A program made the translations under genes and the position numbers. Positions 3,489 through 63,923 of a DNA stretch of 64,000 bases are shown piece after piece. The notes beneath the pieces were generated by a model that saw only the letters and a program-made list of their open reading frames with translations, had not been told where the DNA came from and did not search any database. The DNA is taken from positions 673,001 through 737,000 of the forward strand of contig NZ_CP048117.1 in assembly GCF_000469135.2 (NCBI RefSeq), written 5' to 3'. Each line of letters opens with the position of its first letter. Positions within the stretch are counted from its first letter, which is position 1. This stretch comes from Bacillus sp. SB49. Lineage in GTDB: Bacteria; Bacillota; Bacilli; Bacillales; Halobacillaceae.

Positions 3489-5789
3489 TTATTGGTGAAT
3501 GGTTGTCTTTTGCTGCTCGCGTATGTTTTGAGCAGCTTGCTGCATGTGATGAAGGGAAGCAAGTGTTTCCTTGATCCCGCGTGTCTTTAATCCGCAGTCG
3601 GGATTGATCCAGAACTGGCGTGGATCGAGCACTTTCAGAGCACGACGGATGCTTTGTTCCATTTCTTCCACACTTGGAATCCGCGGGCTGTGAATGTCGT
3701 AAACGCCGAGTCCGATACCTTTATCGTATGCGAACGTTTCGAAAGCTTCAATCAGTTCCCCATGGCTGCGGGCAGTTTCAATGGAAATGACGTCCGCATC
3801 CAGTTTGTCAATCGTGGCAATGATTCTGCCGAATTCCGAATAACACATGTGCGTATGGATTTGCGTTTCATCTGCCGCTGCAGCGGTCGCAAGTAAAAAG
3901 GCGCGGACAGATTGATCAAGGTACGTCGCTTGTTTATTGGATTTCAGCGGCAGCCCTTCACGTAGTGCCGGCTCGTCTACTTGAATCATTCCAATGCCTG
4001 CGTCTTCTAAAGCACGGATTTCCTTTTGGAGAGCAAGAGCAATTTGTTCCGTAACCTCTGCAAAAGGGATATCCTCCCGCACGAATGACCAATTCAGGAT
4101 GGTAATCGGCCCAGTCAGCATCCCTTTGACCGGTTTGTTGGTCAATGACTGTGCATAAGCGCTCTCTTTCACCGTCATAGGAGCTGGTAGAGATACATCT
4201 CCGAATATAATGGGAGGCTTCACACAGCGGGAGCCGTAGGACTGCACCCAGGCGTATTCCGTAAAAGCGAAACCGTTCAGCTTCTCACCGAAATATTCTA
4301 CCATGTCATTCCGCTCGAATTCGCCGTGAACAAGGACGTCGAGGCCGACCTCTTCCTGGTTGGCGATCCATTCGGCCGTCCTTTCCTTTACGAATGCATC
4401 GTATGTTTCTTCGCTCCATGCACCTTTTCGGAAGTTGGCGCGGGCCTTTCTGATTTCTGTCGTCTGGGGCAGGCTGCCGATCGTCGTTGTCGGGAGCAGA
4501 GGCAGAGCGAACTTTTCCTCCTGTACCTTCTTTCGATTGGAAAATTCGGAGGCACGGGACGGATGTTTGTCTTTCCAACGTTTTACTTCCTGCTGTACGT
4601 TCTCGTTCGAGCGGCCTTCGGAATTCGCAAAGGACCTCCAGTTTCGGGAATGTTTCTCCACCTCCGGCAGGATGATTGCTTTTCCTTGATTGACGCCCTT
4701 CGTCAGAAGAACCGTTTCTTCCAGTTTCTGATCAGCGAAGGCAAGGACCTGTTTCAGGTCAGATGCCAGCTTCGTTTCCGATTCGGTCGTCACCGGCACG
4801 TGAAGCAGGCTGGTGGAAGGCTGGAGAATCAAGCGGTCTTCCGGCACGATCTTTCTGACAGCATCCGTGATCTGCCATGTGTGTTTCCAATCGTTTCGCC
4901 AGATGTTTCGGCCGTTAATCACTCCCGCCGCCAATACTTTATCGTTCGGAAAGCCGTGTTCAGCGAGCTGGGACAGGGTTTGGCCGTTATCATCCACGAA
5001 ATCAAGGCCGATGCCATCTACAGGAAGTTGAATGACGGAATCATAAGCTTCCACTGCTTCAAAGTATGTTTGAAGCAAAAGCTTGATGCCGCTCACTTCT
5101 TTAGAAATGGTGTCATAAACCGATTGAACGAAGCGGAGGTCTTCTTCCGATAAGTCAGTAACAAGAATCGGCTCATCGATTTGAACCCAAGCTGCTCCTT
5201 CTGCGGCCAATTCTTGAAGCACTTGTATGTAGAGCGGTACCAGTGCCTGCAGCACTTGTTCGAACGGCTGCTTATCAAAACCCTTGGCAAGCTTCAAGTA
5301 GGTCACAGGCCCTAGCAGCACCGGTTTTCCATCAATGCCGAGCTGCTCCTTCGCCTCTTTATAATAGCGGAGCGGCCTGTTCTCCAGAAGCACCGGTTTT
5401 GTATCCTTTTCAATTTCCGGGACGATATAGTGATAGTTGGTATTAAACCATTTTGTCATGGAGGAGGCTACCGCTGATTCTGTGCCACGGGCGATGTTGA
5501 AATACGTTTCCAGTGAAGTGGGTTCCGTATCCTGAAAACGCTCGGGAATGATCCCGAACATGATGGATGTATCCAGAACGTGGTCGTAATAGCTGAAGTC
5601 ACCGACCGGAATCAAATCGAGCCCTGCTTCTTTTTGTTTCTTCCAATCCTTGTGTCGGAGGGCAGTCAGTTCTTCCACAAGCTCCTGCTCTGTCGTATCT
5701 TTCTTCCAATAGCGCTCCAGAGCTTTCTTCCATTCCCGTTTCTCCCCGATACGCGGGTACCCAATTGCTGAACTTCGTGCTTGTTTCAT
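3489..5789 (-). CDS. metE: cobalamin-independent methionine synthase MetE
   Basis: This 766-residue enzyme moves the methyl group from 5-methyltetrahydropteroyltri-L-glutamate to homocysteine without B12. The start region (SSAIGYPRIGEKREWKKALE) is the family signature. The two-barrel length is normal. The C-terminal zinc ligands are visible in THMCYSEF and in PDCGLKTR. ATG 5789 follows an AGGAGG site at good spacing. The gene has a roughly 500-base leader on its own strand holding a SAM-I riboswitch and a cobalamin riboswitch, each with its own terminator. It should therefore be expressed only when both S-adenosylmethionine and B12 coenzyme are scarce. B12 control implies that a MetH enzyme exists elsewhere in the genome. 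Confidence 0.97.
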   Translation of the reverse strand: MKQARSSAIGYPRIGEKREWKKALERYWKKDTTEQELVEELTALRHKDWKKQKEAGLDLIPVGDFSYYDHVLDTSIMFGIIPERFQDTEPTSLETYFNIARGTESAVASSMTKWFNTNYHYIVPEIEKDTKPVLLENRPLRYYKEAKEQLGIDGKPVLLGPVTYLKLAKGFDKQPFEQVLQALVPLYIQVLQELAAEGAAWVQIDEPILVTDLSEEDLRFVQSVYDTISKEVSGIKLLLQTYFEAVEAYDSVIQLPVDGIGLDFVDDNGQTLSQLAEHGFPNDKVLAAGVINGRNIWRNDWKHTWQITDAVRKIVPEDRLILQPSTSLLHVPVTTESETKLASDLKQVLAFADQKLEETVLLTKGVNQGKAIILPEVEKHSRNWRSFANSEGRSNENVQQEVKRWKDKHPSRASEFSNRKKVQEEKFALPLLPTTTIGSLPQTTEIRKARANFRKGAWSEETYDAFVKERTAEWIANQEEVGLDVLVHGEFERNDMVEYFGEKLNGFAFTEYAWVQSYGSRCVKPPIIFGDVSLPAPMTVKESAYAQSLTNKPVKGMLTGPITILNWSFVREDIPFAEVTEQIALALQKEIRALEDAGIGMIQVDEPALREGLPLKSNKQATYLDQSVRAFLLATAAAADETQIHTHMCYSEFGRIIATIDKLDADVISIETARSHGELIEAFETFAYDKGIGLGVYDIHSPRIPSVEEMEQSIRRALKVLDPRQFWINPDCGLKTRGIKETLASLHHMQQAAQNIREQQKTTIHQ

Positions 5790-5823
5790 TTCCCATTCCT
5801 CCTGCAGTTGTTTTTCAATCCAA

Positions 5824-5854
5824 TAAAAAAATCTCTCTTACCTACAAAGAGAGA
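5824..5854 (-). terminator. expression-platform terminator of the metE cobalamin riboswitch
   Basis: On the minus strand TCTCTCTT (5854-5847) pairs with AAGAGAGA (5839-5832) and is followed by T residues. It lies 35 bases before the metE start and directly after the cobalamin aptamer. It is the natural off-switch when adenosylcobalamin is bound. Confidence 0.85.
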
Positions 5855-5929
5855 CGACGGAGTGACATGGGAAGGATACGTCGAAAAAAGGGTAGACGAA
5901 TCCCGTTGTCAACACCTGCCTATTCCTCG

Positions 5930-6110
5930 TAGGACCTAGTGCGGGTTCCAGAGGCAGGTCTCCTGACTTATGATCACGGCGGGCTGCGCCTTCCCATCGA
6001 CTATGATAGTGGCTGCTGCAGCTCCGCTCCCAATTACAGTGGCGGGACCGTGCCGGATTTTCACCGGTCTTCCCTTTTAAGCCGGGGGACACCCCGGCAC
6101 CTGTGGAACA
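5930..6110 (-). ncRNA. cobalamin (AdoCbl) riboswitch upstream of metE
   Basis: Read on the minus strand, the region holds the conserved parts of the B12 aptamer: the GGTGAAAATCCGGCACGGTCCCGCCACTG-type core around 6000-6065, and the B12 box with its CAGGAGACCTGCC core near 5953-5966. A terminator follows at 5824-5854. It sits downstream of a complete S-box with its own terminator, so metE mRNA must pass two ligand-gated terminators. The ends given are approximate. Confidence 0.93.
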
Positions 6111-6127
6111 GATTATTCAGTTGAATA

Positions 6128-6160
6128 ATAAAAAAAGAACCTCTTGTATGAGAGGTTCTG
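6128..6160 (-). terminator. expression-platform terminator of the metE S-box
   Basis: On the minus strand AGAACCTCT and AGAGGTTCT form a 9-bp stem followed by seven T. The 3' strand of the aptamer P1 helix (GAGAGGT, about 6168-6175) can instead pair with ACCTCTC of the terminator's 5' arm. This gives the expected antiterminator. Confidence 0.88.
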
Positions 6161-6167
6161 ATTGTAC

Positions 6168-6282
6168 GGACCTCTCTTATCTTTCAGAGCATCTGCTCTG
6201 CTGGAATTAGCACCACAATCATATCGATCGGTTGCCGGGTTTCGTAGGGCCAGTCCCTCCACCACTCTGAATAAGAGATTGC
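6168..6282 (-). ncRNA. SAM-I (S-box) riboswitch upstream of metE
   Basis: Read on the minus strand, it shows the S-box order. A CTCTTAT P1 strand and CAGAGTGGTGGAGGGACTGG come first, then CCCTACGAAACCCGGCAACC, then GTGGTGCTAATTCC, and finally GAAAGATAAGAG closing P1. SAM binding stabilises P1 and frees the terminator at 6128-6160. It is the first of two riboswitches in the metE leader. Confidence 0.95.
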
Positions 6283-6301
6283 TATTGGATTGATTACAAG
6301 C

Positions 6302-6330
6302 ATACTAGCATGAGAAAAATAGGGTGTCAA
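6302..6330 (-). promoter_or_regulatory. sigma-A promoter of metE leader
   Basis: On the minus strand TTGACA (6330-6325) and TAGTAT (6307-6302) are separated by 17 bases. Transcription would start around 6295, just before the S-box. Confidence 0.75.
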
Positions 6331-6446
6331 TCCGCTCTTCTACAATTTTTTCTAGAAAAAGGATAGAGAGGGGCGAGTATCAACGGGTGAAAAAAATCTA
6401 TCAAAAAGGTAGAATGTAGGGTATTACTACTCGGGAGCTGGTTATT

Positions 6447-7940
6447 TTGTTGCGTGTCGTCTGGTTCAAGCGGGACCTTCGTCTCCATGATCATGCACCA
6501 TTATATAATGCGGTACAGTCGGGAGACATGGTGCTTCCGCTTTACGTTGCAGAACCTTCCATCTGGCAGGGGCAGGAGCTGTCTGCCCGCCATTATCAGT
6601 TTGTGAAAGAGAGCCTCCATGATCTGCAGAAGGAGTTAAAGCAGAGAGGCGGTCGGTTATTCGTCGCTGTCGGGGAGATGGAAACAGTGCTGGAAGAGAT
6701 ATACGAGACATATGGCCCGTTTTCTCTTCATGCGCATGAAGAAAATGGAACACCGGTCACGTTTTCAAGGGATCAGAGAGTAAGGTCGTGGATGAAGCAA
6801 AAGGGGTTAACCATGAAAGAAGATCAACCATTCGGAGTCTTCCGTGGCTTGAACTCAAGGGACGGATTTTCTGAGCGCTGGGAACAGTTCATGAAGCATC
6901 CGGTCTTTCCTGTACCGGAAAAAATCCCGTGCGTCCCGGAAAAGGAATCCGTGTTGACGTTGAATCTGGACCAATTGGACTCGCTGTATGTCGGCGGTTC
7001 GACGCTTGATAAAGGACAGAAGGGAGGAGTGGAAGAAGCACATCGGACGTTGGACAGCTTTTTAAGGGTACGCTTCCATTCCTATTCTTATCACATATCG
7101 AAACCACTGAAATCAGCACGATCTGGAAGTCGTCTGTCTCCATATCTTGCCTGGGGAAACATATCCCTCCGCTTCGTTGTCCAGCAGACTTGGATGAAGA
7201 TCAGGGCATGCAGCGATGCGGGAGAAAGAAAGCAGCTGGAGAATTTCTTGTCCCGTCTTTACTGGCACTGCCATTTCATCCAGCGTTTGGAGGATGAGCC
7301 CGAAATCGCGGAAGAGTCGATGAATCCTGCTTTTGATCAAGTGTACGAGGAATGGAATGAAGAAGCATTCCGCCGCTGGTATCAAGGAAGTACCGGATTC
7401 CCGATGATCGATGCCGCCATGCGTGCCCTTCATGAGACTGGCTGGATCAATTTTCGTTCCAGGGCGATGGTCGTTTCCTTTGCCTGTCATACATTAAGAC
7501 TGGATTGGCGAAAACCAGCCCGTGCACTGGCGGGGTTGTTCCTCGATTATGAACCGGGAATCCATTACAGCCAAATGCAGATGCAGGCTGGTACAACAGG
7601 TTTCCATACCATCCGAGTCTATAATCCTGTCAAACAGGGACTCGACCACGACCCGGGCGGGGCTTTTATCCGGACTTATATTCCGGAGCTTCGCGGCATT
7701 CCTGCGTCTTTCATTCACGAGCCATGGAAGCTTCCTTCGTTTGCCTCCTTGGAATATCCGGCTCCCATGATCGATATCCAAGCAGCAACGAAGAAAGCAC
7801 GGGATACCTTATGGGCTGTGAAGGAGTCGCAAACAGCTGAAGACGAGGCTGGTAAACAGCTTAGGAAACATGGATCTCGAAAGGGTGTAAGGAACAGAGA
7901 GACGGTGGATTCGGAGCAGCTTTCCTTTGATTTATTCTAA
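6447..7940 (+). CDS. deoxyribodipyrimidine photolyase / cryptochrome family protein (atypical FAD loop)
   Basis: This 497-residue protein has the photolyase start [18 protein letters not shown], an N-terminal antenna domain, and a C-terminal FAD domain ([16 protein letters not shown], then [24 protein letters not shown]). In classical CPD photolyases the next segment reads NNGGWQWAASTG. Here it is [16 protein letters not shown], typical of a separate bacterial subgroup, so the substrate is uncertain. Both TTG 6447 and TTG 6450 are possible starts; GGGAG at 6433-6437 favours 6447. The tail (about residues 445-490) is Lys/Arg/Glu rich. It is independent of the FeS photolyase at 1913-3442. Confidence 0.85.
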
Positions 7941-11463: not shown

Positions 11464-14040
11464 ATGCATTCACAAGGAAAGACATATTCGAAAGTCGGTG
11501 TGATCTTGACCATGCTTCTCGGTCTGTTCGTGGGGTTACAGACAGAGGTCTCTGCCAAAGAGCAGGATGATACAGCAAACTGGACAAGAGAAATGGCGCA
11601 AAACTATAAGAATACGCCTGAAAATACACCGGAAAATATTGATAACTTCAAGGACGTAGCACCAGATTATTGGATTTGGGATACATGGCCTTTGAGGAAC
11701 CGCGATGGTTCACTGGCTGAAATCGACGGCTACAAAATCATTTTTGCTTTGACGGCTTCGAAAGATTATACATGGAACGGACGTCACGATGTTGCGAAGA
11801 TCCGTTACTTCTACTCTAAAGACGGCAAGGATTGGAAACTTGGCGGCCTTGCTTATGATCCTGACAAAGCATACGGCTCCCGCCAATGGGCTGGATCTGC
11901 AATGATGGAGAAAGACGGCAAGGTCAACTTGTTCTACACAGCAACTGGAAGAAAGTCAGATGAGGAAACTACATATGAGCAGAGGTTGGCTCGTACGACG
12001 TTGACTTTCGACACAGATGAGAACGGGGTGGAAGCGAACCCTTCCGGAAAGCATGAAATTCTTCTGGAAGCAGATGGAAAGTATTATGAAACACAGGAAC
12101 AGAAGACAGGAGATATCATCTACTCTTTCCGTGATCCATGGTTCTTCAAAGATCCGAAATCCGGCAAAGAATATCTGTTGTTCGAAGGAAATTCCGGAGG
12201 TACGGAAAAAGCATGTGAAGCTGGAGATATCGGAAGTACATCCTTCCAGAAGAATCATGATGTTCCGGAAGGTGCGGAAGATTATAATGGGAACGTGGGA
12301 ATCGCCGTTGCTGATGACGGAGATTTAAGTGATTTTGAACTGCTGCCTCCACTGTTGGAAGCAGATTGTGTAAACCAACAGTTGGAAAGACCACACTTAG
12401 TTTATAAAGACGGCAATTATTATTTGTTTACCATCAGTCACAAATTCACCTTCGCTCCTGGACTGGAAGGGCCGGACGGACTTTACGGTTTTGTTAATGA
12501 CTCCCTGCGTGGGGATTACAAACCGCTTAATGACAACGGTTTGGTTGTAGCGAATCCGGAAGATGACCCATTCCAAGCATACTCCTGGGCCGTTCTTCCG
12601 AATGAGAACGTCATTTCATTCGTGAATGAATACAAGGATGAGAACGGAGAAGATCAAGTAGGAGGATCCTTTGCTCCTACATTGCAATTGGATCTGGATG
12701 GTGACGAAACAAAGATCGTTGGCGAATTGGAAGACGGGCAGATCCAGTACCCGGATAACAAAGAGGAAGACGAGAACGAAGAGAAAGAGCAGACACCGGA
12801 ATGGTCTGCTGAAGACGCAGATAAATTCAAGCGTACCAAGGATAACACGGTCGACGAAATCGATTTGAAAGAAATAAAGAAAATCGCTCCGGACCTTCAT
12901 ATTTGGGACACATGGCCGCTGAGAGAACGTGACGGATCCATTGCGAAAATAGATGGAAAGGAAATTATTTTCTCACTGACTGCACCGGCGGATGTCCTTC
13001 CTGGCAAGCGCCATGACATTGCTGAAATCCGTTACTTCTATCGTGAAGATGGAGGAGACTGGGAGCTTGGCGGTAAAGTCTTTGAAGACGGTGAAGCACT
13101 GGGTTCCCGTCAATGGGCCGGCTCTGCTATGGTAGATGACGGAGAGCTTCACATGTTCTATACAGCGACAGGACGCAAAGGCGAAGAGAAATTGTCGTAT
13201 GAGCAAAGACTGGCGACGGCTTCCGCAGATATCAAGTCCAGATATGGAAAGATTTCTTTCGATAACTGGTCCGACCATGAAGTCATTCTCGAGCCGGATG
13301 GCGAAACGTACCAGACGATGGAACAGTCCGAAGAGGGAGACATCGCTTATACTTTCCGTGATCCATGGTTCTTCCAGGATCCTAAGACAGAGGAAGAGTA
13401 TATTCTCTTTGAAGCGAACTCCGGTGGAACTCCTGCAGAGCGCGCTGAGAAAGACGGAAAAGAGCAGTCCGAATCGACTCTTTATAACGGAAGCATCGGA
13501 ATTGCTAAAGCACAAAACGACGAATTAACGGAATTCAAGGCACAGGATCCACTTCTGGAGGCAGAAGAGGTCAACCAGGAGCTGGAACGTCCGCACATCG
13601 TTGTTAAAGGTGGAAAATATTACTTGTTCACAAGCACTCATACGAATAAGTTCGCTCCGGGAATCAGCGGAGAAGATGGCCTGTACGGCTTTTATGCCAA
13701 AGACCTGCAAGGGGATTACGAACCGCTTAATGAAAGTGGACTCGTGTTGACCAACCCGGCAGATGAACCTTACCAGACATACTCCTGGACCGTAATGCCG
13801 GACGGGAAAGTCATCAGCTTCGCAAACTTCGCGGACTTGGACGGCTTGACCATCGATGAAATCGGCAGCCAGTCCGAAGCTTACCAGTTCGATCACTTCG
13901 GCGGGACTTTGGCACCGACCGTAGAGCTGCAGTTGAGTGGTAAGAAGACGAAAATCAAAGACATCCTTGATCCTGGAGTCATCTCGGATGAAAAAGGAAA
14001 TGGGAAGCACAAAGTAAAAGGTCCAAAGCATAACGGATAA
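11464..14040 (+). CDS. secreted protein with two tandem GH68 (levansucrase/inulosucrase) domains
   Basis: This 858-residue protein has a signal peptide (cut near residue 31, VSA-KEQ) and two full GH68 domains, about 38-425 and 446-840. An acidic linker (KEEDENEEKEQ) joins them. Each carries a complete catalytic triad: nucleophile D73 and D481 (WDTWPL), transition-state Asp D224 and D632 (FRDPWFF), and acid/base E308 and E707 (LERPH). Known GH68 enzymes have one such domain of about 400-450 residues and use sucrose to make levan or inulin-type fructans. The ERPH form resembles Gram-negative and haloarchaeal enzymes more than B. subtilis SacB (ERAN). High Asp/Glu content fits function in brine. 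A fructan hydrolase follows. Confidence 0.93.
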   Translation: MHSQGKTYSKVGVILTMLLGLFVGLQTEVSAKEQDDTANWTREMAQNYKNTPENTPENIDNFKDVAPDYWIWDTWPLRNRDGSLAEIDGYKIIFALTASKDYTWNGRHDVAKIRYFYSKDGKDWKLGGLAYDPDKAYGSRQWAGSAMMEKDGKVNLFYTATGRKSDEETTYEQRLARTTLTFDTDENGVEANPSGKHEILLEADGKYYETQEQKTGDIIYSFRDPWFFKDPKSGKEYLLFEGNSGGTEKACEAGDIGSTSFQKNHDVPEGAEDYNGNVGIAVADDGDLSDFELLPPLLEADCVNQQLERPHLVYKDGNYYLFTISHKFTFAPGLEGPDGLYGFVNDSLRGDYKPLNDNGLVVANPEDDPFQAYSWAVLPNENVISFVNEYKDENGEDQVGGSFAPTLQLDLDGDETKIVGELEDGQIQYPDNKEEDENEEKEQTPEWSAEDADKFKRTKDNTVDEIDLKEIKKIAPDLHIWDTWPLRERDGSIAKIDGKEIIFSLTAPADVLPGKRHDIAEIRYFYREDGGDWELGGKVFEDGEALGSRQWAGSAMVDDGELHMFYTATGRKGEEKLSYEQRLATASADIKSRYGKISFDNWSDHEVILEPDGETYQTMEQSEEGDIAYTFRDPWFFQDPKTEEEYILFEANSGGTPAERAEKDGKEQSESTLYNGSIGIAKAQNDELTEFKAQDPLLEAEEVNQELERPHIVVKGGKYYLFTSTHTNKFAPGISGEDGLYGFYAKDLQGDYEPLNESGLVLTNPADEPYQTYSWTVMPDGKVISFANFADLDGLTIDEIGSQSEAYQFDHFGGTLAPTVELQLSGKKTKIKDILDPGVISDEKGNGKHKVKGPKHNG

Positions 14041-41539: not shown

Positions 41540-41655
41540 ATTTCTTATCCAGAGAGGTGGAGGGACTGGCCCTTTGAAGCCTCAGCAACAGGTCTGAATG
41601 CAGACACTGTGCTAATTCCAGCGGGTGTTGAATAACCCTGATAGATAGGAGCTTC
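41540..41655 (+). ncRNA. SAM-I (S-box) riboswitch upstream of mmuP
   Basis: The order is classical: TTATCCAGAGAGGTGGAGGG, then CCCTTTGAAGCCTCAGCAAC, then GTGCTAATTCC, and finally CCCTGATAGATAGGAG. A terminator follows at 41672-41700. SAM should turn off S-methylmethionine uptake and use, so methionine salvage runs only when SAM is low. Confidence 0.95.
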
Positions 41656-41740: not shown

Positions 41741-43147
41741 ATGGAACAGAACTTCAAAAGAGAAATGAAAACACGCCACCTTGTGATGCTGTCACTCGGT
41801 GGAGTCATCGGAACCGGGCTGTTCCTCAGTTCCGGATACACCATCCAGCAGGCAGGACCATTCGGGACGGTGCTTGCCTATTTGATTGGTGCGTTGGTCG
41901 TTTACTTAGTGATGCTCTGTCTTGGTGAGTTGTCTGTACATATGCCGGAGACTGGTGCGTTTCACAGTTATGCCGCGAAGTATATCGGTCCGGGAACGGG
42001 GTTTACGGTTGCCTGGCTTTACTGGCTCACCTGGACAGTGGCGCTGGGATCGGAATTCACAGCTGCCGGACTGATGATGCAGCGGTGGTTCCCGGATATA
42101 AGTGTATGGATATGGAGCGCTTTATTCGCGATTTTGATCTTCGGATTGAATGCATTCACCGTGAAGTTTTTTGCAGAATCAGAGTTTTGGTTTTCTTCTG
42201 TCAAAGTCATCGCTATTTTTCTATTTATTCTACTTGGTCTGGCTGGAATTTTCGGTATTGTGCCGCTTGCAGATTCTGAACCAGCTCCGTTCTTTTCTAA
42301 TTTCACAGAAGCCGGTTTGTTTCCGAATGGGGCTTTCGCCATCTTAATGACGATGCTGGCGGTCAACTTCGCATTCTCCGGTACAGAGTTGATCGGTATT
42401 GCGGCGGGAGAAACGGTCGATCCCGCGAAAACAATCCCGAAAGCCATCCGGACGACGCTCGTACGGCTCATTCTTTTCTTTGTAGGAACAATTATTGTGC
42501 TTTCCGCGCTGCTTCCGAGTTCGGAAGCCGGAGTCATTGAGAGTCCTTTCGTTGCCGTTTTGGAAAGAGTCGGTGTTCCATTTGCCGCAGATATCATGAA
42601 CTTTGTCATCATCACGGCTATTTTGTCTGCAGCGAATTCAGGGTTATATGCCTCCTCCCGTATGCTGTGGTCTCTCGCGGATCGGAAGACGATCTCTCCG
42701 AAATTCGCGAAAATGACGAAGAAAGGCATTCCGCTGAACGCCATCTTATTCAGCATGCTTGGTGGGGGACTGGCTCTGTTGTCCAGCATCATTGCGCCCG
42801 ATACCGTCTATATCGTGCTGGTATCGATTTCAGGACTTGCAGTCGTTATCGTATGGATGAGCATCAGTCTTGCTCAATTTAATTTCCGGCGGGCTTATGT
42901 GAAAGCTGGGAACAAGGTGGAGGACCTGGGATACCGGGCGCCGCTTTATCCATTGGTGCCGATCGCATCGTTCCTGCTCTGTCTTGCCGCCTGCATCGGA
43001 ATCGCCTTTGATCCGACACAGCGGATCGCCCTGTATTGTGGAATTCCATTCATCATCCTTTGTTATGCAGGGTATTATCTGTCACAATCCAAGAAGAAAC
43101 GGAGAGTAGAACATGTCGAACAAAATCAACAAGCGCAATCCTATTAA
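41741..43147 (+). CDS. mmuP: amino acid permease, probable S-methylmethionine transporter
   Basis: This 468-residue APC-superfamily permease has 12 helices. The AAT-family signature is [21 protein letters not shown] in helix 1, with [17 protein letters not shown] in helix 3. Its S-box and its overlap by 35 bases with a homocysteine methyltransferase gene support S-methylmethionine as substrate. On sequence alone it could carry another amino acid. GGAGGGGAAG precedes ATG 41741. Confidence 0.85.
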
Positions 43148-44063
43148 ACAACTATTGGAAACAAAAAAAACGATTATTCTCGATGGGGCGTTGGCGACAG
43201 AATTGGAGACATACGGCTTCGACCTTGATGATCCACTTTGGTCCGCCCGTGTGCTGCTTGAGAATCCGGATGCTATCCGTAAGGTTCATGCCGATTATTT
43301 CCGTAATGGTGCGGATATTGCCATCACCGCTAGTTATCAAGCAACCATTGATGGGTTTAAGCAGCGGGGGATCGACGAAGATAAGGCGCGCACATTAATT
43401 AAAGATACCGTTCGCCTGGCACAGGAAGCACGCTCGGATGTCTGGAGGGAAGCGGATGACAGAGCTTATCCTGTCGTTGCAGGTTCGGTTGGCCCTTATG
43501 GCGCCTACCTTGCTGACGGCTCAGAATATATCGGGAACTATGGTGTCACGGATGAGCAGCTGAAAGAATTTCACCGTCCCAGAATAGAAGCGCTCATCGA
43601 AGCGGGTGCCGACGTGCTTGCCTTTGAAACGATTCCTTCCCTCCAGGAGGCGAAAGTACTGACGGAATTATTGGGCGAGTATCCGGGCGCCAGTGCGTGG
43701 CTTTCCTTTTCCTTGAAGAATGGCAGCCAAATCAGCGATGGAACGGAATGGAGACGTTGTATAGATGTGATCGAAGGGAGGGAGCAGGTGGTAGCAGTCG
43801 GAGTGAACTGTGCTCCGATTCCTGATGCGACAGAGGCAGTCGGCCATATCCGCGCTCTTACAGATAAGCCGATTATTTTATACCCGAATTCGGGAGAAAC
43901 ATACGATCCCGACACGAATGACTGGTACGGAGAACGTTCCTGTCAACGTTTCGATGAGCAGTCCGATCGGTGGGTGGAAGCCGGGGCAACGATCATAGGA
44001 GGCTGTTGTCGTACGACTCCTGATCATATTCAATCGCTGGCAAGGCGCTGGCAGAATAGGTAA
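43113..44063 (+). CDS. mmuM: homocysteine S-methyltransferase
   Basis: This 316-residue zinc enzyme moves a methyl group from S-methylmethionine (or SAM) to homocysteine, giving methionine. Visible: [25 protein letters not shown] at the N-terminus, the first zinc Cys in VGVNCAPI, and the CC pair in [11 protein letters not shown] near the C-terminus. It starts inside mmuP (35-base overlap), with a GGAGAG site within the permease gene. The length is typical. Confidence 0.94.
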
Positions 44064-58132: not shown

Positions 58133-58678
58133 ATGGCAAGAGCAAAACGGAAAGGATTGACTCTGGTTTACACCGGAGATGGAAAAGGAAAGACAACAGC
58201 TGCCGTCGGACTGACGGTGAGAGCGGTCGGGCAGGGAATGAACGTAAAAATCCTCCAATTCATCAAATCGAAGAAACGGAGCTATGGAGAAATGAAGGCG
58301 CTTGAGAAGCTGGGTGTGGAAATGGTGCAGCTCGGAGAGGGGTTCACCTGGCTGAAAACTCCGGATGTACATAGGGAAGCGTTGAAGTCCGGGTGGGCGG
58401 AAGCGAAACAAACTGTCATGTCCGGCGAGTATGACGTGGTCGTCCTTGATGAAATAAACAATGCCCTGGCGATCGACACATTCCCGGTCGATGATGTACT
58501 GCCATTGGAGGAAGTGCAGGAGCTGATCCGCCATAAACCGGAGCACGTTCATCTTGTCCTTACAGGGAGAAGTGCCAAGGAGGAAATTAAGGAGCTGGCC
58601 GATCTTGTTTCCAATGTGCACGTCGAGAAGCATTACTACGATGAAGGAGTGCCGGCGGTGCGCGGCATTGAATATTGA
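58133..58678 (+). CDS. cobO: cob(I)yrinic acid a,c-diamide adenosyltransferase (CobO/BtuR)
   Basis: This 181-residue P-loop enzyme puts the 5'-deoxyadenosyl group on corrinoids. Visible: VYTGDGKGKTTAAVGLTVRA (P-loop), ILQFIKSKKRSYGEM, VVVLDEINNALAI (Walker B) and HLVLTGRSA. ATG 58133 is 8 bases after AAGGAG; an earlier in-frame GTG at 58124 lies on that site. Its stop overlaps the start of cbiA (TGATG). No riboswitch is seen upstream. Confidence 0.95.
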   Translation: MARAKRKGLTLVYTGDGKGKTTAAVGLTVRAVGQGMNVKILQFIKSKKRSYGEMKALEKLGVEMVQLGEGFTWLKTPDVHREALKSGWAEAKQTVMSGEYDVVVLDEINNALAIDTFPVDDVLPLEEVQELIRHKPEHVHLVLTGRSAKEEIKELADLVSNVHVEKHYYDEGVPAVRGIEY

Positions 58679-60033
58679 TGAGAAAACGCTTGGTGATAGC
58701 CGGCGCAGCCAGCGGTGCCGGTAAAACGACGATTACACTCGGGTTAATGGCGGCATGGAAGCAGCAGGGATGGAACGTACAGGGATTCAAGTGCGGACCG
58801 GATTATATCGATCCCAGTCTTCATAAAGCGGTAACGGGGCGGCCGGCGCGGAACCTGGATAGTTGGATGCTTCCGGATGACGTGTTGGCGGAAGTGTTTC
58901 AAAAAGGAAGTGACACGGCAGATATCTCGATTGTCGAAGGAGTCATGGGACTGTACGACGGTAAGTACGCGACATCCAATCAAGGGTCGACCGCGGAAAT
59001 CAGTCAGAAAATTGATGCACCTATCATTCTTGTCGTTGACTGCAGTAAGATGGCAAGAAGCGCCGCAGCCATCGTGAAAGGATACCAGTTATTTGATGAC
59101 ACGACGGACATTGCCGGTGTCATTGCAAGCAAAGTCGGAAGCGAAGGGCACTATCGGATTATCAAAGAAGCGGTAGAGCAGGCGTGTGGCATCCCGGTGT
59201 GCGGGTATCTGCCTCGAATGGAAGATTTAGAGATGCCGGAACGACACCTTGGGTTGATCCCAGCCATTGAAAGGGGAGAGCTTGATGACCTTTTTAACAA
59301 GATGGGAAGAGCCGTCATGGAAACCGTAGATATGGAGCGACTGCTGCAGATAAGTGAGAGTAAGCCTTGGATGGAGGTTCCCCCTTCGCCGTTATTTCAA
59401 CAGCAGGCTTCTTCTTCTCTTAAGATAGCGATTGCGGAGGATAAGGCGTTCAACTTCTATTACCCGGAAAATCTCGAACTTTTGGAGGCGCGCGGTGTAG
59501 AAGTGCTTCGTTTTTCTCCGTTAGCTGGAGAGAAAATTCCTAAAGTGGCGGACGGCGTTTATCTGGGCGGCGGCTTTCCTGAACTTTATGCCGAACGACT
59601 CTCGGAACAGAAAGACATGAGAAAAGCGTTCCTGGCTCGCGTCGAAGAAGGGCTTCCTGTCCTAGCGGAATGTGGGGGATTCATGTTTTTAACAAAGGCC
59701 ATCGACGGACATGCCATGGTTGGGGCTATTTCCGGGGACATGCATATGCAGGAAAAGCTGGCTGCTGTCGGATACAGGGAAATCCATGGAGGACCCGGGA
59801 ATTTTCTTCTTCCTGAAGGGGAAACTGCAAGAGGTCACGAGTTCCACTATTCTGTATATCGCCCGGATGAGGAGCATACGCCGGCCTACTTCGTTAAAGG
59901 AACATTCGGAGAAGGGACAGAAGGAGTCATTCATAAGAATATTGTCGCCGGGTACACGCATATACACTTTGCATCGAACCCATCCGTTGTGGATGCTTTC
60001 CTGAATAAATGCAGGGAGGTTCGCAATTCATGA
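58678..60033 (+). CDS. cbiA: cobyrinate a,c-diamide synthase (CbiA/CobB)
   Basis: This 451-residue enzyme amidates the a and c side chains of the corrin ring with glutamine and ATP. It has an N-terminal ATP domain (IAGAASGAGKTTITLGLMAA), the corrin-site stretch GPDYIDPSLHKAVTGRPARNLD, and a C-terminal amidotransferase with the Cys in VLAECGGFMFLT. The start overlaps cobO, and the stop overlaps cbiP (ATGA). All three are translated as one unit. Confidence 0.95.
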   Translation: MRKRLVIAGAASGAGKTTITLGLMAAWKQQGWNVQGFKCGPDYIDPSLHKAVTGRPARNLDSWMLPDDVLAEVFQKGSDTADISIVEGVMGLYDGKYATSNQGSTAEISQKIDAPIILVVDCSKMARSAAAIVKGYQLFDDTTDIAGVIASKVGSEGHYRIIKEAVEQACGIPVCGYLPRMEDLEMPERHLGLIPAIERGELDDLFNKMGRAVMETVDMERLLQISESKPWMEVPPSPLFQQQASSSLKIAIAEDKAFNFYYPENLELLEARGVEVLRFSPLAGEKIPKVADGVYLGGGFPELYAERLSEQKDMRKAFLARVEEGLPVLAECGGFMFLTKAIDGHAMVGAISGDMHMQEKLAAVGYREIHGGPGNFLLPEGETARGHEFHYSVYRPDEEHTPAYFVKGTFGEGTEGVIHKNIVAGYTHIHFASNPSVVDAFLNKCREVRNS

Positions 60034-61505
60034 AGGCCGTACCAATTATGATCCAGGGCACACACTCAGATGCGGGGAAAAGTATGATGGTTACGGCTTT
60101 GTGCAGGATTTTTGCACGAAAAGGATATGCTGTCGCCCCGTTCAAGTCGCAGAATATGGCGCTCAACTCCTATATCACTATAGATGGCAGAGAAATCGGA
60201 CGCGCGCAGGGGGTGCAGGCGGAAGCAGCCGGTGTCGAGGCAGAGACGATGATGAACCCTGTATTGATCAAGCCGACGAAGGATGATGAATCCCAAATTG
60301 TCGTCCATGGGAAGCCGCTCCGGAATATGAAAGCATCCGAGTACCGGAAGGAATATTACGAGACTGCCAAACAGGTAATACGAGAAGCTTATCAATCTTT
60401 AGCCGGTCGTTTTGAAAGAATCGTAATCGAAGGTGCCGGAAGCCCGGCAGAAGTGAATTTAAACGACCGTGAACTTGTCAATATGAGTATCGCAAGAATG
60501 GCGGATGCTCCGGTCATCCTTGTAGGGGATATCGACAGAGGAGGCGTATTTGCAAGCCTTGTCGGAACCCTGCAGCTGCTTGATCCGGTTGATAGAAAGA
60601 GAGTGTGCGGTGTAATCATCAATAAATTCCGCGGAGATGTGTCTCTGCTTCAGCCCGGTTTGGATTGGTTTGAAGCGTATGCAGGTATCCCGGTTCTGGG
60701 TGTCGTTCCGTTCATGGAAGATGCTGCGATGGATGCGGAAGATTCCTTAAGTCTCAATCAATACAGCCGTTTCCCCGACGATGCCAAGGATTTGGATATC
60801 GCTGTCATTCATCTTCCGCGCATTTCTAATTTTACAGACATCGATCCGTTTCGGTTTGAAACGGACTGCCACGTACGGCTTGTTCAGAAGCCGGAAGAAT
60901 TGGGAAAACCCGATTTGATCATTCTTCCCGGAACGAAAAATACGCTGGAAGACTGTCAGTTCATGAAGGAGCTGGGGTTGGACCACGCTGTCAGAAGGCT
61001 TCACCTTCAAGGAACCATCATCTTCGGGATTTGCGGCGGCTATCAAATGATGGGGGAGAAGATCCATGATCCTCAAAAAGTAGAATCTGAAGCCATCGAA
61101 GTGGAAGGGATCGGGATTTTTCCACTAAAGACGACAATGCTTACAGAGAAACGGACGGTTCGCTCAAGCATGAAGGTTCATTTCTCGGGAGAAGAGCTGG
61201 ATATTCAAGGCTATGAAGTCCATATGGGCCGGACGGAGCGGACGGGGGATGTCGATTCCTTCCTTGATGGTTCCGTAAGCGACGGAGCATATGGGACGTA
61301 TTTTCACGGTGTGTTCCATAACGACAAGTTCCGCCATCTGTTTCTCAACCAGCTCAGGAAACGAAAAGGATTGCAGGAGGCGGAAGCGCACGTGTTGTAT
61401 GAACAACTCCGGTTGGAAGCTTATGATCGTTTAGCAGCGCACGTCACAGGTTTTTTAGACGTAGATAGACTGGAAGACATAATGGAGCAGTACCAGCGTA
61501 GATAG
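60030..61505 (+). CDS. cbiP: cobyric acid synthase (CbiP/CobQ)
   Basis: This 491-residue glutamine-dependent enzyme amidates the b, d, e and g positions of adenosylcobyrinic acid diamide. Visible: IMIQGTHSDAGKSMMVTALC, FKSQNMALNSYITIDGREIGRAQ, VIEGAGSPAEVNLNDRELVNM, and the amidotransferase Cys in IIFGICGGYQMMG. ATG 60030 has GGGAGG upstream. It ends the cobO-cbiA-cbiP unit. The next gene has its own promoter and riboswitch. Confidence 0.95.
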   Translation: MKAVPIMIQGTHSDAGKSMMVTALCRIFARKGYAVAPFKSQNMALNSYITIDGREIGRAQGVQAEAAGVEAETMMNPVLIKPTKDDESQIVVHGKPLRNMKASEYRKEYYETAKQVIREAYQSLAGRFERIVIEGAGSPAEVNLNDRELVNMSIARMADAPVILVGDIDRGGVFASLVGTLQLLDPVDRKRVCGVIINKFRGDVSLLQPGLDWFEAYAGIPVLGVVPFMEDAAMDAEDSLSLNQYSRFPDDAKDLDIAVIHLPRISNFTDIDPFRFETDCHVRLVQKPEELGKPDLIILPGTKNTLEDCQFMKELGLDHAVRRLHLQGTIIFGICGGYQMMGEKIHDPQKVESEAIEVEGIGIFPLKTTMLTEKRTVRSSMKVHFSGEELDIQGYEVHMGRTERTGDVDSFLDGSVSDGAYGTYFHGVFHNDKFRHLFLNQLRKRKGLQEAEAHVLYEQLRLEAYDRLAAHVTGFLDVDRLEDIMEQYQRR

Positions 61506-61571: not shown

Positions 61572-61601
61572 AGAATCATCACAAAAATTCGAATATTCCG
61601 C

Positions 61602-61770
61602 GATCAGGTCCTACATGCTGTAGGTGAAAAGGGAAATCGGTGTAAATCCGATGCGGTCCCGCCACTGTAACGTTGAGGAAAGCTGCGTGCCACTGTTTGT
61701 ACGGGAAGGGCAGCTTGACGATGAAACGGAGCCAGGAGACCTGCCTGACGTGTTCGAGAAGAGACTTTCG
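61602..61770 (+). ncRNA. cobalamin riboswitch upstream of btuFCD
   Basis: The aptamer core GATGCGGTCCCGCCACTG and the preceding GGTGTAAATCCGATG lie at about 61635-61670. The B12 box GCCAGGAGACCTGCC lies at 61731-61745. A terminator follows at 61848-61877. Adenosylcobalamin should reduce expression of the uptake operon. Ends are approximate. Confidence 0.94.
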
Positions 61771-61906: not shown

Positions 61907-62890
61907 ATGAAAAGAACACACTGGTTCATGCCGTTTGTTATGGGTATGCTTCTGATGTTTGCTGTCGGTTGCAGTGATGATTCCAATGAAACGGAGCAGG
62001 GCGCAGATGCTGGTGCGGAGGAAACGACTGATCAGCAGGGAAATTCTGCCGAATTCCCGGTCACGGTCACAGACGGAAGTGGAGAGGAAGTTACCATCGA
62101 AGAGGAGCCGGAGACGATCGTATCCTTAATACCGAGCAACACAGAAATTACATTTGCGCTCGGTCAGGGCGATAAGTTGATTGGTGTCGATACATACAGC
62201 AACTATCCGGAGGAAGCAAATGATATAGAAAAAATTGGAGCTCAGGAAATGGATGTGGAGAAGATTTTATCTTTAGATCCGGATCTTGCGCTGGTGACAG
62301 ATTTCCACCAGGAGAATAATCGCGATATTCTAGATAAATTCGAAGAATCCGGTATCGACGTTGTTGTTGTCGACAGTGCGGAGTCTTTTGATGCTGTATA
62401 TGACCATATCGAACTGCTTGGTGATGTGGAAGGGGCATCCGAAGAAGCGGATGAGCTTGTAGGCGACATGCAGTCCAGCTTGGAAAAGATCAAAGAGAAG
62501 GCAGAAGCTGTCGAGGAAAAGAAACGGGTTTGGGTGGAGGTCGCTCCTAGTCCTGATATTTATACAACCGGTACAGGAACCTTCATGAATGAGATGCTGG
62601 AGGCGATCCATGCCGAAAATACGGCTGCCGACCAGGAAGGTTGGGTGAAGATGACGGAAGAGGAAGCCGTCCAGAAGAATCCTGATGTCATCATCACCAC
62701 TTACGGCTACTATGTCGATAATCCTGAGGAGCAGGTGCTTGACCGAGCGGGATGGGCGGAAGTTCCTGCCGTGAAGCAGGAACAGGTCTTCGATGTGAAT
62801 AACGATACGGTGACGCGTCCGGGACCGCGTTTGATCGATGGAGTAGAGACGCTTGGAAAGCTCATTTATCCAGAAGTATTTACTGAATAA
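61907..62890 (+). CDS. btuF: cobalamin ABC transporter substrate-binding lipoprotein
   Basis: This 327-residue BtuF-type binding protein has a lipoprotein signal ending FAVGC (Cys22), an acidic linker (SDDSNETEQGADAGAEETTD), and the pattern PETIVSLIPSNTEITFALGQGDKLIGVDTYSNYP, read in pieces. A helix spine follows at about 180-210. The riboswitch and the B12 synthesis genes beside it point to cobalamin or cobinamide as ligand. It overlaps the permease gene by 38 bases. Confidence 0.92.
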   Translation: MKRTHWFMPFVMGMLLMFAVGCSDDSNETEQGADAGAEETTDQQGNSAEFPVTVTDGSGEEVTIEEEPETIVSLIPSNTEITFALGQGDKLIGVDTYSNYPEEANDIEKIGAQEMDVEKILSLDPDLALVTDFHQENNRDILDKFEESGIDVVVVDSAESFDAVYDHIELLGDVEGASEEADELVGDMQSSLEKIKEKAEAVEEKKRVWVEVAPSPDIYTTGTGTFMNEMLEAIHAENTAADQEGWVKMTEEEAVQKNPDVIITTYGYYVDNPEEQVLDRAGWAEVPAVKQEQVFDVNNDTVTRPGPRLIDGVETLGKLIYPEVFTE

Positions 62891-63923
62891 GATCGGGTGG
62901 ATGTACATCTTGTTGGGAGGGTTCGTACTTGGTGCGACCCTTCTTGGCGTTTTAAACAGCAGTGTCGATTTCCCGATCCCGGTTGTCCTCGATCTTCTGC
63001 TTAATAAAACGCTCGGGATTACTTTGCGGGAAGAGACAGTCGAGAAATCCACCGAACTGATCATTTGGGAAATACGGTTTCCACGGGTACTGCTGGCGCT
63101 TCTCGTAGGTGCTTCCCTTTCCATTGCAGGTGCTGCTTTCCAAGGATTGTTGAGGAACCCGCTGGCTGATCCGTACACAATCGGCGTTTCGTCCGGTTCC
63201 GCCCTCGGTGCTGTATGCGTGCTGTATTTCCAAATTACGATTTCGTTTCTAGGCGAATTCACGCTGCCGGTTGTAGCGATTATCTCCGGATTCATCACGA
63301 TGCTTATCGTCTTCGGGGTGACCCACCTGGCCAATCGAACGCTTGCGATCGAGACGATCATTCTGGCTGGTATTATCGTTAGTTCTTTCATCAGTGCGGT
63401 CATTTCCTTAATCATTGCCTTGAGTTCAAGAGAAGATATGCGGCAGATTCTTTATTGGCTGATGGGGAATGTCGGGATGCGGGGATGGAGTCATGTCCAA
63501 TTGCTTCTTCCGTTTTTCGTCGTTGGGGTCCTGCTTCTCCTGTTCAAAACGCGCGAATTAAATGCGATGGCGCTTGGTGAGGAGTCTGCCGAACACTTGG
63601 GAGTGCACGTGAATCGAGGGAAAGTGATGGTCATCGTCGGCGCATCGCTGTTGACAGGGGCTGCCGTCGCCGTATCCGGACAAATAGGATTCGTCGGACT
63701 GGTCATCCCTCATTTCATCCGAATGCTTGTTGGGCCCAACCACCGCCATGTCCTGCCGTTATCCACGCTTGCCGGCGGTGGTTACCTGATTCTCGCCGAC
63801 TTATTTGCACGGACGATTGTGGCACCGGAAGAATTGCCGATTGGTGTCATCACCGCCCTGATCGGCGCACCGATCTTTGCTTTACTTATGATCAGAGAGC
63901 GATTCAGGAGGAACGAATCATGA
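62853..63923 (+). CDS. btuC: cobalamin ABC transporter permease
   Basis: This permease of the BtuC/FecCD family has up to 356 residues and about ten helices. Visible: IRFPRVLLALLVGASLSIAGAAFQGLLRNPLADPYTIGVSSGS (in pieces), and GQIGFVGLVIPHFIRMLVGPNHR, the ATPase-contact segment. Start TTG 62853, with GGAGTAGAG upstream, is inside btuF; a later start at ATG 62901 would lose 16 residues and lacks a clear site. The ATPase gene overlaps its stop. Confidence 0.92.
   Translation: MESSFIQKYLLNKIGWMYILLGGFVLGATLLGVLNSSVDFPIPVVLDLLLNKTLGITLREETVEKSTELIIWEIRFPRVLLALLVGASLSIAGAAFQGLLRNPLADPYTIGVSSGSALGAVCVLYFQITISFLGEFTLPVVAIISGFITMLIVFGVTHLANRTLAIETIILAGIIVSSFISAVISLIIALSSREDMRQILYWLMGNVGMRGWSHVQLLLPFFVVGVLLLLFKTRELNAMALGEESAEHLGVHVNRGKVMVIVGASLLTGAAVAVSGQIGFVGLVIPHFIRMLVGPNHRHVLPLSTLAGGGYLILADLFARTIVAPEELPIGVITALIGAPIFALLMIRERFRRNES

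Follow-up and report, generated by a model that had tools for sequence, protein, structure and literature searches.

The DNA analysed here, which we call the window, is a stretch of 64,000 nucleotides from Bacillus sp. SB49. Its minus strand carries metE, encoding cobalamin-independent methionine synthase, behind a leader in which the following elements were recognised.

6302..6330, minus strand: promoter of the sigma-A type, TTGACA-17-TAGTAT, the -10 box being preceded by TG (sequence pattern)
6174..6277, minus strand: SAM-I (S-box) aptamer (RF00162, model positions 1-108, the whole model)
6170..6176, minus strand: antiterminator 1 strand GAGAGGT, overlapping aptamer helix P1 on its 3' side (best fold)
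6150..6156, minus strand: antiterminator 1 partner ACCTCTC, which shares bases with the 5' arm of terminator 1 (best fold)
6130..6159, minus strand: terminator 1, stem-loop 6159-6136 plus T-run (9 pairs)
5936..6119, minus strand: cobalamin aptamer (RF00174, model positions 1-189, the whole model)
5919..5933, minus strand: P13 hairpin CCTA-N7-TAGG with L13 CGAGGAA (consensus fold; role by analogy with the available part of PMC10653944)
5915..5921, minus strand: predicted antiterminator 2 strand AGGCAGG (fold prediction)
5824..5855, minus strand: terminator 2, stem-loop 5855-5831 plus T-run (9 pairs, 3 of them G-C)
5798..5803, minus strand: Shine-Dalgarno-like AGGAGG (read from the sequence)
3489..5789, minus strand: metE (TIGR01371)

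The metE leader of the window

A preliminary description, made from the sequence of the window, had read this leader as a promoter, a complete S-box with its own terminator and antiterminator pairing, and a complete B12 aptamer with a second terminator. All these parts were recovered at the minus-strand positions it had given. Its anatomy could have failed against Rfam covariance models, and both aptamers scored far above the cut-off: 93.7 bits for SAM-I (gathering score 44.4; E 3.3e-21) and 121 bits for cobalamin (gathering score 31.5; E 7.8e-30). The metE reading frame (5789-3489) scored 1096 bits with TIGR01371, for which the cut-off is 929.95. The aptamers are 54 nt apart, and the tandem fits the rules of the survey in PMC9481103, with a gap of at most 300 nt and no open reading frame between the aptamers; metE follows downstream. 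A divergent photolyase-like gene (below curated cut-offs) starts on the other strand at 6447.

Both strands of 5750-6450 held three promoter-like sites, against 1.0 (sd 1.0) in shuffles, and three terminator-like sites against 0.7 (sd 1.0), one of the three lying opposite metE's strand. Taken by itself the terminator count is only modestly above chance; stronger evidence for the two terminators (-11.8 kcal/mol for terminator 1 and -10.2 kcal/mol for terminator 2 in the window) comes from their conservation across the tandem leaders described below.

The window holds a second riboswitch of each class. A SAM-I riboswitch at 41542-41651 (plus strand, 86.4 bits) stands before genes for an S-methylmethionine permease and a homocysteine S-methyltransferase of the mmuP-mmuM type (41741-44063). 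A cobalamin riboswitch at 61589-61762 (plus strand, 108.6 bits) lies just downstream of cobB and cobQ (58675-61505) and before BtuF/BtuC-like ABC transporter genes (61907-63923; below curated cut-offs). At 11464-14040 (plus strand) there is an 858-residue protein with a signal-like start and two similar halves, which by eye has the look of a two-domain levansucrase or inulosucrase.

Distribution of the tandem

How common this arrangement is at metE in the window's family is beyond what a single sequence could tell. Calling metE by a TIGR01371 match over the cut-off, we found the gene in 16 of 44 genomes of the family, and at 16/16 of these loci SAM-I followed by cobalamin stood upstream. The comparison of spacing that the preliminary description had proposed gives a narrow range over the 16 family loci, from 52 to 77 nt between the two aptamers. 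Outside the family set the tandem was also present at four loci of named records (L023, L024, L027 and L028), which brings the distinct SAM-first loci to 20, from 20 genomes.

The named records also show what else can precede metE. From 80 such loci found, 53 were run through Rfam, and five of them carried the tandem, one (Thalassobacillus, L020) being a repeat of a family locus, L111. A cobalamin aptamer alone, no more than some 340 nt from the metE match, was present at 17/53; two loci, both from Sporolactobacillus, had just a SAM aptamer directly upstream; and at four the SAM aptamer lay some 2 kb upstream of metE, with a bifunctional homocysteine methyltransferase/MTHFR-like gene (named by eye) in between at one of them, L029. 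Rfam found neither aptamer before metE at the remaining 25, one of which (L050) had just 139 nt of upstream DNA.

In a MetE tree built by a quick method from 66 rows (L019 and L020 omitted as repeats of L105 and L111, L071 and L072 as distant), the 16 family leaders fall on one clade (SH-aLRT 99). We considered several independent origins of the tandem and set the idea aside: the tree needs three label changes, but its starred branches force only one, and a single origin with losses is a possible fit too.

Spacing in Bacillus clausii, which we take to belong to Shouchella, can be approached through its nearest relative here, Shouchella shacheensis (L028), where the spacer is 307 nt against 54 nt in the window. 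Part of that spacer looks like a repeat, with two copies that resemble each other and start TCTAGCTC. In one family genome (G011) metE was matched as two overlapping pieces (L114 and L117), perhaps reflecting a frameshift in the gene or the assembly. Among the matches listed for relatives there are also close same-strand pairs of one class, SAM-SAM at G004:C20:411950-412230 and G033:C1:2704165-2704441 and cobalamin-cobalamin at G039:C34:25605-26107.

The SAM half

All 20 tandem leaders have TTGACA in the 70 nt that precede the SAM aptamer, and in 19/20 terminator 1 folds at -10.6 kcal/mol or lower. The antiterminator is plain in the window. When its transcript is folded up to the 3' arm of terminator 1, the best fold contains the antiterminator GAGAGGT:ACCTCTC (-37.1 kcal/mol), and for the whole SAM half the best fold has helix P1 together with terminator 1 (-43.9 kcal/mol). 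In a simple duplex test this antiterminator exceeded composition at p 0.05 in 12/20 leaders, the window among them (p 0.0498).

The B12 half

Terminator 2 is present at -8.2 kcal/mol or lower in 20/20 tandem leaders. An alignment of 16 leaders reaching to the T-run (row L103 partial) gave a consensus fold with two helices, P13 (CCTA-N7-TAGG) and terminator 2. With the 16 leaders cut at the terminator arm, the consensus fold showed P13 and no antiterminator (-2.3). The arms hardly vary in the alignment (some rows are partial), so counting of helix pairs was dropped. The L13 sequence CGAGGAA occurs in 11/16 family leaders, and the candidate antiterminator 2 strand reads AGGGAGG in 13/20 tandem leaders and AGGCAGG in the window.

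The available part of PMC10653944 reports a P13/antiterminator/terminator scheme for P. megaterium metE, shown by mutation. We looked for its counterpart by folding every leader RNA as far as the 5' arm of terminator 2 and comparing it with 100 dinucleotide shuffles of the upstream sequence per leader. In 17/20 leaders the 30 nt directly following the aptamer, which include P13 and AGGGAGG, paired with at least five arm bases, against 2.9 expected from shuffles; leader by leader, only 12/20 had an arm pairing that was reached by at most 5 of 100 shuffles. The simple duplex test placed antiterminator 2 above composition at p 0.05 in 4/20 leaders. In the window four of seven arm bases were paired, and 9 of its 100 shuffles did at least as well. 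By analogy the B12 antiterminator would resemble that of P. megaterium metE, but it is weak in the window.

The leaders with fewer than five paired arm bases are the window (4), L100 (0) and L107 (3). They form one clade of the MetE tree (97), and AGGGAGG is missing from all three. For the whole platform of the window, the best fold pairs CCUACGAGGA with UCUUUGUAGG (-32.2 kcal/mol), compared with -31.7 when terminator 2 is forced and -29.0 when terminator 2 and P13 are both forced. The B12 platform of this sublineage might have been rewired, the AGGGAGG:UCUCUCU antiterminator having eroded and been replaced by a pairing of the 5' strand of P13 plus L13 (CCUACGAGGA) with the terminator arm's end and loop (UCUUUGUAGG), in a NOR leader that is otherwise conserved. 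We offer this only tentatively, and rather doubt it, because the best fold of the whole L100 platform has terminator 2 and lacks a pairing of the CCUACGAGGA:UCUUUGUAGG type.

Probable independence of the two switches

One family genome (G018, leader L110) shows what can happen to one half of the tandem. Its SAM aptamer, at 972-1081, scores 63.5 bits, has a broken P1 pair and carries several substitutions that none of the 15 family aptamers aligned with it shares; terminator 1 is down to -3.5 kcal/mol. The cobalamin aptamer reaches 114.4 bits and terminator 2 -10.9 kcal/mol. The SAM half has decayed beside a B12 half that scores as intact, as two separable switches would predict.

This precedent, and the weak B12 antiterminator of the window, raise the question of whether in the window too only one switch still works and the other is a relic. 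Its scores make that very improbable: the SAM aptamer lies inside the range of the other 14 family leaders (84.0-98.7 bits, L110 apart), the cobalamin aptamer inside the family range (103.8-123.2 bits), and both terminators are strong.

The halves could also be coupled. The SAM P1/antiterminator strand (AAGAGAGG) can form a duplex of -7.8 kcal/mol with the 5' arm of terminator 2 (UCUCUCUU) in the window, so that leaders free of SAM would weaken the B12 terminator; TCTCTCT follows the cobalamin aptamer in 18/20 tandem leaders and in 0/17 B12-only metE leaders. This cross-talk is striking by eye, yet in 18/20 leaders the duplex did not exceed composition-matched shuffles (window p 0.29). The two that passed, L110 and L114 (p 0.043 and 0.023), are sisters, and 20 tests lead one to expect one pass by chance. 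The terminator arm, moreover, already has a predicted partner within the B12 platform. As a single family supplies 16 of the 20 leaders, the contrast of 18 with 0 may reflect descent, and CTCTCT is found in L049 and L052, which have no SAM switch. We therefore rejected cross-talk as a candidate and give coupling hardly any credence. Independent switches are supported, at the level of sequence, by the null result for cross-pairing in 18/20 leaders and by a SAM half that can decay alone.

metH and the proposed logic of the leader

A match to metH over the cut-off was present in 28 of the 44 family genomes, and each of the 16 that carry metE was among them. In the window's genome it lies at G000:C1:262680-266102 (1264.9 bits, cut-off 1010.85), in an operon with two PLP-enzyme-like genes and a bifunctional methyltransferase/MTHFR-like gene before it, these three named by resemblance. 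A SAM-I riboswitch (270352-270462) is upstream of the operon, and none of the five cobalamin matches of the genome is located there. From their positions, SAM would thus govern both routes to methionine and B12 the B12-independent route alone, as NOR logic requires. Elsewhere in this genome, two SAM-I riboswitches stand back to back, one on each strand, with 165 nt between them (G000:C1:1698185-1698563).

The best explanation of the leader, to which we give a probability of about 0.9, is that it acts by transcription attenuation with two inputs, as a serial NOR gate in which both ligand responses are predicted; the logic is read from an anatomy of two OFF switches in series. RNA polymerase would start a few bases past the -10 box at 6302. 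With SAM bound, P1 would hold the antiterminator strand, terminator 1 would form and transcription would stop near 6130. At low SAM the antiterminator strand would pair instead with the 5' arm of terminator 1, letting the polymerase enter the cobalamin riboswitch. There, bound adenosylcobalamin would stabilise P13 through a kissing loop, predicted between L5 and L13, with terminator 2 forming and the transcript ending near 5824; at low B12 the P13 region would pair with the 5' arm of terminator 2 and metE would be transcribed. MetE would then be made only if SAM and B12 are both scarce, that is, when the cell needs methionine but its B12-dependent MetH is unable to work.

Known counterparts and significance

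Sudarsan and colleagues are said to have described in 2006 the tandem SAM-I/AdoCbl riboswitch of Bacillus clausii metE. The preliminary description had already noted the same order there and regarded the principle as known, and the literature agrees. According to the available part of PMC2258182, the SAM-I and AdoCbl riboswitches of that leader control termination independently; as far as these sources go (PMC2258182, PMC9481103), it shares with the window the gene, the two classes, their order and, as predicted for the window, the use of OFF switches acting on transcription termination (NOR). The accessible text of Sherlock 2022 (PMC9481103) counts eight SAM-I-first and three AdoCbl-first tandems, names B. 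clausii metE, and explains the NOR logic through metH, as we do; architecture and gene association of its SAM-I/AdoCbl class are identical to those of the window. Its eight SAM-I-first examples compare with our 20 loci, and the two sets may overlap. The survey excluded aptamer gaps above 300 nt, so a locus such as L028 would drop out.

For the second half alone, the cobalamin riboswitch of P. megaterium metE is a similar B12 OFF switch in which, in the part of PMC10653944 available, pairing of the 3' side of P13 with the 5' side of the terminator makes the antiterminator. The P. megaterium metE locus examined here (L052, possibly not the strain of that paper) has no SAM aptamer, unlike the window, whose antiterminator pairing is weakened or shifted by comparison.

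The tandem of the window is therefore real, was well interpreted and is ordinary in kind, its principle having been published. What is new is its distribution: within 44 family genomes it stands at all 16 metE loci over the cut-off, on one MetE clade. Published examples are few (eight SAM-first in the part of PMC9481103 available), and to these our data add conservation inside a family and a relative with a decayed SAM input. The resulting set of gates, closely alike in spacer length, could serve for comparative tests of whether the two switches act independently and why these genomes keep both.
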